64,000 nt of DNA. Origin: Hymenobacter artigasi (GTDB lineage: Bacteria; Bacteroidota; Bacteroidia; Cytophagales; Hymenobacteraceae). The DNA is taken from the NCBI RefSeq assembly GCF_012275535.1, contig NZ_JAAVTK010000003.1:1-64000 (forward strand). The letters are read 5' to 3'. Position numbers and translations under genes: made by a program. This document shows, piece after piece, positions 54,359-57,300 of this stretch (position 1 is the first letter of the stretch; every line of letters starts with the position of its first letter). The notes below the pieces were generated by a model. It made no database searches. It saw only the letters and a list, made by a program, of their open reading frames with translations, and had not been told where the DNA came from.

Positions 54359-57300
54359 ATGTCCACTGCCACCATCGCCGCCCCCTCCCCTCTTCCCGAA
54401 TTGCTCCGCCAGCGCCTGCTGATTCTCGACGGCGCCATGGGCACCATGATTCAGCGCCACCCCCTCACGGAAGAGGATTTCCGGGGTGCCCGCTTCGCCG
54501 ACCACCCCAAGCCCCTGCGTGGCAACAACGACCTGCTGAGCCTGACCCGGCCCGACATCATCAAAGGCATTCACGCCGAATACTTTGCCGCCGGGGCCGA
54601 TATGGTGGAAACCAACACCTTCTCTGGCACTACCATCGCGCAGGCCGACTATGGCCTCGAGCATGTGGTGTATGAACTGAACTACGAGTCGGCGCGCCTG
54701 GCCCGCGAGGCGGCCGACGAGTACAGCACCCCCGAGCGCCCGCGCTTTGTGGCCGGCGCGGTAGGTCCCACCAACCGTACCGCCTCCCTCTCGCCCGACG
54801 TGAACCGGCCCGGCTTCCGCGCCGTGACTTTCGATGAGTTGGCCACGGCTTACCTAGAGCAGGTGCGCGGCCTCGTGGACGGCGGCGTGGATACGCTGCT
54901 CATCGAAACCATTTTCGATACGCTAAACGCCAAGGCGGCCCTCTACGCCGTGCAGAAGTTCTTCGACGAGGGCGGCCGCGTGGTGCCCATCATGATTTCG
55001 GGCACCATCACCGACGCTTCGGGCCGCACGCTGAGCGGGCAGACGGTGGAGGCCTTCTGGAACAGCATCCGCCACCTGCCGCTGCTGAGCGTGGGCCTGA
55101 ACTGCGCCCTGGGCGCCGACCAGCTCCGCCAGTACGTGCAGGAGCTGAGCCGCATTTCCGACGTGCACATCTCGGCTTACCCGAACGCCGGTTTGCCCAA
55201 CGCATTTGGCGGCTACGACGAATCGGCGGAAGAATTTGCCGCGCTGGTGGAGGAGTACCTGAAGGAAGGCATCGTGACGGTGGTGGGCGGCTGCTGCGGC
55301 ACCACGCCCCAGCACATTGCCGAGCTGAGCCGGCTGGCCGAGCGGTACCAGCCCAGACGGCTCACCTCACCCCCAGCCCCTCTCCCGCGGAGAGGGGAGC
55401 CAGACGATGCAGATAAAGAATCGTCAGGCTCCCCCCTCTCCGCGGGAGAGGGGGGCCGGGCCCCAAAGGGGTCTCGTGAGGTGACCCGCCTCGCCGGCCT
55501 CGAACCCTTCAACATCACCGCCGACAGCCTTTTCGTGAACGTGGGCGAGCGCTGCAACGTGACCGGCTCACGGGCCTTTGCCCGCCTAATCCGCACCGGC
55601 GCGTATGAAGAAGCGCTAGCCGTGGCCCGCGTGCAGGTGGAGGAAGGTGCCCAGGTGCTCGACGTGAACATGGACGAAGGCATGCTCGATTCGGAGCAGG
55701 CCATGACCACCTTCCTGCACCTCATCGCCTCCGAGCCCGACATTGCGCGGGTGCCCGTCATGATTGACTCCTCGAAGTGGAGCGTGCTCGAAGCCGGCCT
55801 GAAATGCGTGCAGGGCAAGAGCATCGTGAACTCCATTTCGCTGAAAGAAGGCGAGGAATTGTTCCTGCAGCGGGCCCGCACCGTGCGCCAGTACGGCGCC
55901 GCCATGGTGGTAATGGCCTTCGACGAAGACGGCCAGGCCGATTCGCTGGAGCGCCGCATGGAAATCTGCCAGCGCAGCTACGACCTGCTGATGGGCATCG
56001 ATTTCCCGCCCACCGACATCATTTTCGACCCCAACATCCTCATTGTCGGCACCGGCATGGAGGAGCACCGCAACTACGCCATCGACTTCATCGAGTCGGT
56101 GCGCTGGATTAAGGCCACGCTGCCCGGCGCCCTCACCAGCGGCGGCGTGAGCAACATCTCGTTCTCGTTTCGCGGCAACGACGTGGTGCGCGAAGCCATG
56201 CACACGGCCTTCCTGTACCACGCCATCCGAGCCGGGCTCGACATGGGCATTGTGAACCCCGGCCAGCTCGGGGTATACGACGAGATTGAGCCCACCCTGC
56301 TGGTGCTGGCCGAAGACGTGCTGCTGAACCGCCGTGCCGACGCCACCGAGCGCCTGCTCGATTTTGCCGATACGGTGAAGCAAAAGGGCAAGGTGGAAGT
56401 GGTGGCCGACGCCTGGCGCAGCCTGCCGGTGCAGGAGCGCCTGGCGCACGCGCTGGTAAAGGGCATCACCGAGTTTATTGATGAGGACACCGAGGCCGCC
56501 CGCCTGGAGCTGGCCCGCCCCCTGAACGTGATTGAAGGCCCGCTGATGGCCGGCATGAACGTGGTGGGTGACCTGTTCGGGGCCGGTAAAATGTTCCTGC
56601 CGCAGGTGGTGAAGTCGGCCCGCGTGATGAAGAAGGCCGTGGCCTATCTGGAGCCCTACCTGCTGGCCGACAAGCAGGGCGGCGACCGCCAGACGGCCGG
56701 CAAAATCCTGATGGCCACCGTGAAGGGCGACGTGCACGACATCGGCAAAAACATCGTGGGCGTGGTGCTGGCCTGCAACAACTTCGACATCATCGACCTC
56801 GGCGTGATGGTGCCGCTGGAGAAGATTCTCGACGAAGCCCAAAAGCAAAACGTGGACGTAATTGGCCTCTCCGGCCTCATCACCCCCAGCCTCGATGAGA
56901 TGGTGTACGTGGCCCAGGCCATGGAAAAGCGTGGCCTGAAAATCCCGCTGCTCATCGGCGGGGCCACCACTTCGCGCCTGCACACGGCCGTGAAAATCGC
57001 GCCGGCCTACAGCGGGCCGGTGGTGCATGTGAACGACGCGTCGCGCTCGGTGGGCGTGGCGGCCGGCCTGCTGGGCTCAGGCGAACGCGCCTACGCCCAG
57101 ACCGTGGCCGACGACTATGCCACCCTGCGCGCCGACTACGCCAGCCGCCAGCGCGACAAAAGCTACCTGAGTATCGAAGCCGCCCGCGCCAACGGCGTGA
57201 AGTCGGACTGGAACGCGGTGCCCATCACCAAGCCCAGCTTCCTCGGCACCAAAGTGCTCGAGGATTACGACCTCGCCGAGCTGGCCCAGTACATCGACTG

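Follow-up and report, generated by a model that had tools for sequence, protein, structure and literature searches.

In-frame palindromic repeats in the methionine synthase linker of Hymenobacter artigasi and in enzyme loops across the genus

The DNA analysed here (the window) comprises the first 64,000 nucleotides of contig NZ_JAAVTK010000003.1 of Hymenobacter artigasi and carries metH, encoding a cobalamin-dependent methionine synthase, behind a SAM (S-box) riboswitch (Table 1). Throughout, G000 denotes the genome of this strain and other G numbers the compared genomes, with C standing for a contig and L for an extracted locus. Given that the riboswitch overlaps the first ATG (54281) of the long metH frame, translation probably starts at residue 27 of that frame, position 54359. 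Counting from this start reproduces the residue numbering of the original prediction, in which a palindromic element occupies residues 335-375 and the cobalamin ligand is His 793 (361-401 and 819, respectively, in full ORF numbering); the equivalent ligand in E. coli MetH is presumably residue 759. No stop codon was found where the frame crosses the element, confirming that a palindrome of about 120 bases lies in frame inside metH, and the Pfam boundaries of S-methyl_trans (residues 47-351) and Pterin_bind (residues 422-659) place it between the homocysteine and folate domains, as had been proposed. Methionine synthase 9ssp (1265 residues), which we take to be the human enzyme, aligns with the sequence on either side of the insert and bridges the interval with 9 residues (347-355), compared with 38 (365-402) here. 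An AlphaFold model of both domains, based on an alignment that included 18 relatives, gave a mean pLDDT of 79.6 with mostly confident barrels, and values below 50 were confined to linker residues 363-416 and three short loops, a confidence profile suggesting that the linker is disordered. The metH bodies showed dN/dS values of 0.03-0.20 over 14 pairs (0.067 for G000-G029), indicating purifying selection. Frame conservation together with low dN/dS suggests that the element is translated.

Table 1. Features of the metH locus and related palindromes in the window
Feature	Position	Strand	Basis
SAM (S-box) riboswitch, metH leader	54179..54287	+	Rfam RF00162, 69.5 bits against a gathering threshold of 44.4
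metH, cobalamin-dependent methionine synthase	54281..58150	+	open frame of 1289 aa, Pfam domains, 9ssp alignment on both sides of the insert
Homocysteine domain (S-methyl_trans)	54419..55333	+	Pfam
Palindromic element including imperfect outer arms	55355..55491	+	inverted repeats; outer inverted flanks at several other copies
Element core, ACCTCACC...GTGAGGT, 119 nt, read in frame	55364..55482	+	sequence, translation
Hairpin, perfect 21-nt inner arms and loop	55377..55453	+	inverted-repeat scan, RNA fold
Downstream stretch with putative long-linker haplotype, unlike nearest relatives	55484..55540	+	identity to G029 lower than in the other 15 segments compared
Folate domain (Pterin_bind)	55544..56257	+	Pfam
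Larger intergenic palindrome, same ends	29981..30148	.	inverted repeats
Intergenic copy, same family	46037..46142	.	inverted repeats; G029 and G108 without a copy here
Intergenic copy, same family	52719..52825	.	inverted repeats

The inner arms of the element (55377-55397 and 55433-55453) are 100% complementary over 21 nt, with 88% complementarity between the outer arms (55355-55370 and 55476-55491). The location proposed originally (55363-55483, about 121 bases) is not exact, the element being somewhat longer. The inverted-repeat score of the linker was 21, compared to a maximum of 11 in 100 shuffles, and folding of the single strand gave -104.8 kcal/mol (z -7.4) with none of 200 shuffles equally stable, in agreement with the expectation of a strong mRNA hairpin. 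The element had also been thought to add about 40 residues. An extra in-frame segment is indeed present; however, the net linker gain over the nearest relatives is 33 amino acids (99 nt) and about 7 codons of the old linker are gone, so that, judged from the alignment, the element replaces linker residues instead of purely adding to them, and no clean insertion is seen.

The metH element shares its ACCTCACCCCC...GGTGAGGT ends and CCCCTCTCC arms with the intergenic copies at 46037 and 52719 and is thus of the same kind, as predicted (family C in that prediction; the GC family below). A whole-genome DNA search with the element gave 103 matches, which we clustered by eye into about 40 places, and a peptide search added at least one further place (C5:49732). 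The listed copies, which had been found by the ACCTCAC/GTGAGGT motif itself, have ACCTCACC...GTGAGGT ends and CCCCTCTCC-like arms, several of them with outer inverted flanks; single elements measure 99-123 nt between the ends, plus outer arms. Genus-wide, 69 of 120 genomes matched the GC family at E 1e-10. The window holds 20 strong palindromes (score at least 18), the metH one alone being in a gene's frame; 18 lie outside long frames, and the remaining one (58162-58248) is in the stretch that separates metH from the following gene, where an open frame precedes that gene and includes the palindrome. This place was also noted as a GC palindrome with the wider bounds 58153-58257. At the position of the 46037 copy, G029 and G108 have other sequence and no clean empty site.

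Besides metH, the family is in frame in this genome in PurL, PBP1C, an RND pump, a second RND pump (partial copy), PNKP and a serine-hydrolase-like protein, in which the copy (C1:1787-1897, L242) lies between a signal-like N-terminus and the Pfam Beta-lactamase2 part. This makes 7 of at least 41 places, the remainder having been only partly compared with gene models. Three further copies (C7:202768, C2:632134, C11:88650) were set aside as in-gene candidates, as they lie between opposite-strand frames or upstream of one and the long frames over them look antisense, and C2:114665, which overlaps the C-terminal end of one frame, was not counted. At L216:1966-2004 a copy of the family appears to form the C-terminus of a frame of 463 aa (616-2004). 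We considered whether frame neutrality could be built into the element, with element plus duplication equalling a multiple of three, and the copy lengths spoke against it. In each of the four in-gene copies whose two ends could be read (119 nt in metH, 113 in PBP1C, 110 in RND, 104 in purL) the length is 2 mod 3, compared with 5 of 21 other single elements in a hand count that excluded composites (rows of at least 130 nt) and a spurious row of 65 nt. Judged from these lengths, the frame of in-gene copies is more likely selected than built in.

Copy number and presence/absence patterns suggest that the element is mobile. Its terminal inverted repeats (ACCTCAC...GTGAGGT and outer arms) are MITE-like. 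No firm target-site duplication was found at the purL copy or the intergenic 46037 copy, where the flanks are themselves inverted repeats; the purL copy is flanked by GAGCCAACG/GAGCCAGCC, and such flanks can equally be palindrome arms. The genome has seven Pfam Y1_Tnp matches, six of them over the cut-off. The GC family was absent beside six Y1 loci (L331-L336), three of which have other palindromes nearby and three none; at the seventh locus, in the window, another palindrome adjoins and a family-C one is 1.2 kb away. A RAYT was thus rejected as mover of the GC family, given that the six scanned loci carry other families or none, a rejection that applies to this family and not to the other palindromes. 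Several of the latter were seen near Y1 genes or metH: a Y1_Tnp-like ORF with a weak match (28278-28826; 21.5 bits, below cut-off) is immediately followed by a TGTCATCCTGAGC palindrome (28832-28930), a palindrome of another family (GGTAAGCTTTAGCTTGCCGT) lies upstream of metH (54074-54162), and GGTAAGCTTTAGCTTGCCGT-like palindromes stand on both sides of the Y1-transposase gene G000:C1:9799-10047, a possible RAYT/REP pair.

metH is present in all 120 Hymenobacter genomes compared, and its linker was read in 118 (none was extracted from G109 and G126). Short linkers were found in 78 and long ones in 40. The short linker, counted with both anchor motifs, is 57-58 residues long, as in Pontibacter, with two exceptions (a frameshifting deletion in G004 and one missing base in G010). 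Hence the expectation that related strains should lack residues 335-375 held for the nearest relatives G029 and G108, which are 96% identical to G000 over residues 401-1289, for the other short Hymenobacter alleles and for two Pontibacter outgroups. An inverted repeat scoring above all 100 dinucleotide shuffles was present in 25 of the 40 long linkers (score at least 15 in 24 of them; G127, at 10, is marginal), and all 25 are in frame without stops; no short linker scored above 10, these having been scored without shuffles. The other 15 long linkers, one of them frameshifted (G117), may be decayed repeats or of another origin, some resembling decayed copies and others not. The palindromes themselves differ, with GC-rich (G000, G016, G080), AGTTAAGAGTT (G036, G114, G131) and ATTCCTCATTC (G125) types named by eye from translations and DNA, and on these sequences the repeats at this site belong to unrelated families. 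By hand comparison of G000 and G016, the reading frame through GC-family copies is not always the same. Recurrence in separate assemblies also bears on whether the repeat was misassembled. The present assembly has 39 contigs, and palindromes can collapse or chimerise; against this stand the intact frame and same-site in-frame palindromes in assemblies of 1-3 contigs (metH in G128, G136 and G114; purL in G105), and we regard an assembly error as extremely improbable. At L208 (G004) the linker is shortened and the frame shifted from within a palindrome start, reflecting a deletion or an assembly collapse. Stops in the same linker were noted in L060, L061, L078, L079, L082, L092, L098, L102, L103, L106 and L115, in which the two metH domains are probably separate genes. 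In several other Bacteroidota loci, among them L061, L079, L092 and L115, the frame ends and resumes at this point, which makes tolerance plausible for the metH linker.

To place these alleles in their history, a metH tree was built from the gene without the linker and its flanks. G000 grouped with G029 and G108, both with short linkers, at a support of 100. The palindrome trait, with 26 alleles scored as palindromic by eye, required at least 20 changes on this tree, and the long versus short state at least 16. Under the shuffle test 25 of the 40 long alleles count as palindromic; G099 falls out and G127 stays in as a marginal case. An ancestral long linker, with a palindrome in the genus ancestor that most species lost, could account for one 18-row clade in which all linkers are long, 14 of them not labelled palindromic, and for the FN residue found in 39 of the 40 long alleles. 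However, short linkers are equal in length to those of Pontibacter and of most of the remaining loci in other phyla whose frame is unbroken, which would call for many separate and precise losses, and the palindrome families differ between sisters on the tree. Such an ancestry is therefore disfavoured, and we consider it improbable.

The sequence immediately downstream of the insert departs from this tree. In the 60-nt segment there, G000 and G029 are 73% identical, compared with 85-99% in the other 15 segments. The other singletons tested gave 62-83% against short relatives in this segment, where three short-short controls gave 78, 90 and 93%, the low control being G029-G072; some more distant pairs (G061-G064, G128-G120) are low in other segments too. 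In G094 the upstream 60 nt are replaced as well, with 62% identity to its sisters and the best match in G103. The N of an LEPFN motif occurs in 39 of 40 long alleles compared with none of 79 short rows (two Pontibacter included), and in 12 independent pairs the agreement is nearly always complete (p about 0.0005). A shared residue of this sort could be convergent co-adaptation at the protein level. The synonymous CTCGAA occurs in 17 of 40 long compared with 3 of 79 short alleles, with about 6 pairs to 0 (median p about 0.03); the sign-test p ranged from 0.008 to 0.45 over 200 random pairings, so the signal is modest. These patterns point to a long-allele haplotype of about 50 bp downstream of the insert that is common to distant species. 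Combined with the lost linker residues, they suggest that the present G000 allele probably arrived by recombination.

We weighed this against a simple recent transposition, in which a copy from the same genome jumped into metH, adding its length and a short duplication. The short linkers of the nearest relatives fit such an event, as do copies in the own genome that match the greater part of the element at up to 85% identity and the mere 79% identity of the insert to that of G085, the only other metH insert recognised among the matches listed. By contrast, about 7 linker codons are gone, the net gain of 99 nt falls short of the 119 nt or more that should have been added, the downstream 60 nt diverge from G029 as described, and no target duplication was seen. 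A recent jump thus seems unlikely to us, though it is the strongest of the competing accounts. Among the matches listed, non-metH copies (91% in G064, 85% in the own genome) are closer to the insert than is the metH insert of G085; with the family shared across the genus and a better match in G064 than at home, similarity does not point to a donor. The original idea of a mobile palindrome building a protein linker is therefore upheld in that the family is dispersed and in frame in other genes, and not as clean transposition of a single copy. Our reading that the allele came by recombination extends to the site as a whole, where the data point to a locally recombining linker cassette with palindrome turnover inside it.

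A similar pattern was seen in other enzymes. In the PBP1C loop, 22 of 33 linkers were palindromic (60 shuffles each), 20 of them in frame, with marginal positive calls in G063 and G073; palindromes were weak or absent in the remaining 11. The copy lies inside the transpeptidase domain, indicating that loops inside domains are used as well. Two near-identical genomes, G029 and G108, have a PBP1C palindrome with stops and a broken frame (L313, L314), and in G108 (L314) about 1.7 kb was noted between the two matched parts. In purL, 8 of 24 linkers were palindromic (60 shuffles each), 7 in frame and one broken (G079), with three repeat families, one translated ETHICVS...EETQICVS in G010. For purL and PBP1C, each search contributed its 30 top-scoring loci, to which six PBP1C loci were added by hand, and the sample is not random; both queries held the insert, which biases the set toward insert-bearing genomes, and the anchors missed the linker in 6 of 30 purL and 3 of 36 PBP1C loci. 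In the RND central loop, 6 of 10 linkers (9 genomes; 60 shuffles each) were palindromic, all in frame, that of G072 being marginal. In PNKP, scored without shuffles, at least two kinds of palindrome occur; they are in frame in 8 of the genomes read, and the frame is broken in G123 and G019; 4 of the 14 genomes searched gave no match and G085 was not extracted. Between the phosphatase and ligase domains of PNKP in this genome (L364) lies another repeat-like stretch, KLQASSKLQASS...KLVASSWQLEA, unrelated to the first. For metH, purL and RND, homologues lacking the in-frame copy were found, and for PBP1C and PNKP most homologues read also hold some repeat or remnant. These loci also bear on the idea that the hairpin is retained because it has its own role, such as mRNA stability or a ribosome pause letting the homocysteine barrel fold before the folate barrel. 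The very stable predicted hairpin and the recurrence of palindromes at the domain boundary in several species are what such a function would produce; however, 93 of the 118 metH alleles have no significant palindrome, and the position of the PBP1C copy within a domain and the weak or missing PBP1C palindromes do not fit it, leaving this idea very doubtful.

We consider it likely that the metH insert is an in-frame copy of a palindromic repeat, dispersed and non-autonomous, of the MITE or Rickettsia type, and that it forms a disordered linker segment of about 40 residues joining two domains that fold separately, with recurrence at tolerant loops and a linker behaving as an exchangeable cassette. 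Palindromic repeats would insert or be copied widely in Hymenobacter genomes, and coding copies would persist in loops able to accommodate 30-40 polar, Pro/Gly/Arg-rich residues, provided that the frame is kept. Selection would remove most frame-breaking copies and in-frame ones would persist, to be swapped for other palindromes or to decay into ordinary linker, a step suggested by the range of states seen. The long metH linker would be an exchangeable cassette, and given that its downstream flank is common to distant species, its alleles probably spread by short homologous-recombination tracts. A wider reading, in which loops of core enzymes are long-term landing sites throughout the genus, unrelated palindromes replace each other there in frame and linkers cross species by short recombination tracts, is quite possible and is held with clearly less assurance.

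Rickettsia palindromic elements (RPEs) were reportedly described by Ogata et al. in 2000 and 2002, and in-frame palindromes also occur in Wolbachia. RPEs are palindromic repeats of about 100-150 bp in several families, in frame in conserved unrelated genes and nearly half of them inside genes, according to a 2024 review, which regards in-frame palindromes at such frequency as characteristic of Rickettsia and finds it conceivable that other prokaryotes have a comparable mechanism (PMC10969869); they appear also in PMC2635572. The Hymenobacter family is alike in being dispersed, at about 40 places and 99-123 nt, with copies in frame inside conserved genes. The likeness is of kind and is not claimed as a sequence relationship; Hymenobacter belongs to another phylum and is free-living. 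Unlike RPEs, unrelated families occupy the same enzyme loop in many Hymenobacter species, the linker flank is apparently exchanged, and the confirmed share of places in genes is lower than the nearly half given in that review (PMC10969869). Enterobacterial repeat units RU-1/2/3 are likewise small mobile repeats with open frames inside annotated genes; they are from Enterobacteria, and the abstract describing them gives no recurrence at one linker across a genus (Delihas 2007, PMC2759123). REPs measure 20-40 bp and are mostly GTAG/CGTC-tagged (PMC3733652). The present family resembles REP/RAYT systems in that its palindromes are dispersed and Y1 transposases exist in the genome, and differs in its length of about 120 bp, its ACCTCAC/GTGAGGT ends, the lack of a GTAG/CGTC tag in the copies listed and the six Y1 loci not flanked by it. 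A literature search of titles and the start of abstracts found no earlier report of in-frame palindromes in Hymenobacter. RPEs are the closest precedent, and what seems new, as read from the sequences, is the Bacteroidota host, the recurrence of unrelated repeats at fixed loops and the apparent linker exchange.

Errors in gene calling and in short-read assembly may occur at these loops, a caution for other work on them. Five enzymes across a genus of 120 genomes act as replicates, offering sisters with and without an insert, different repeats at one site, weakened copies and broken genes. Such natural before-and-after pairs could be used to trace the route from repeat DNA to protein, to study what large linkers do to a multidomain enzyme like MetH and to ask whether linkers pass between species. 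Repeat DNA seems here to add new stretches to proteins while the gene stays intact and, if the wider reading is true, would go on providing free-living bacteria with protein sequence.
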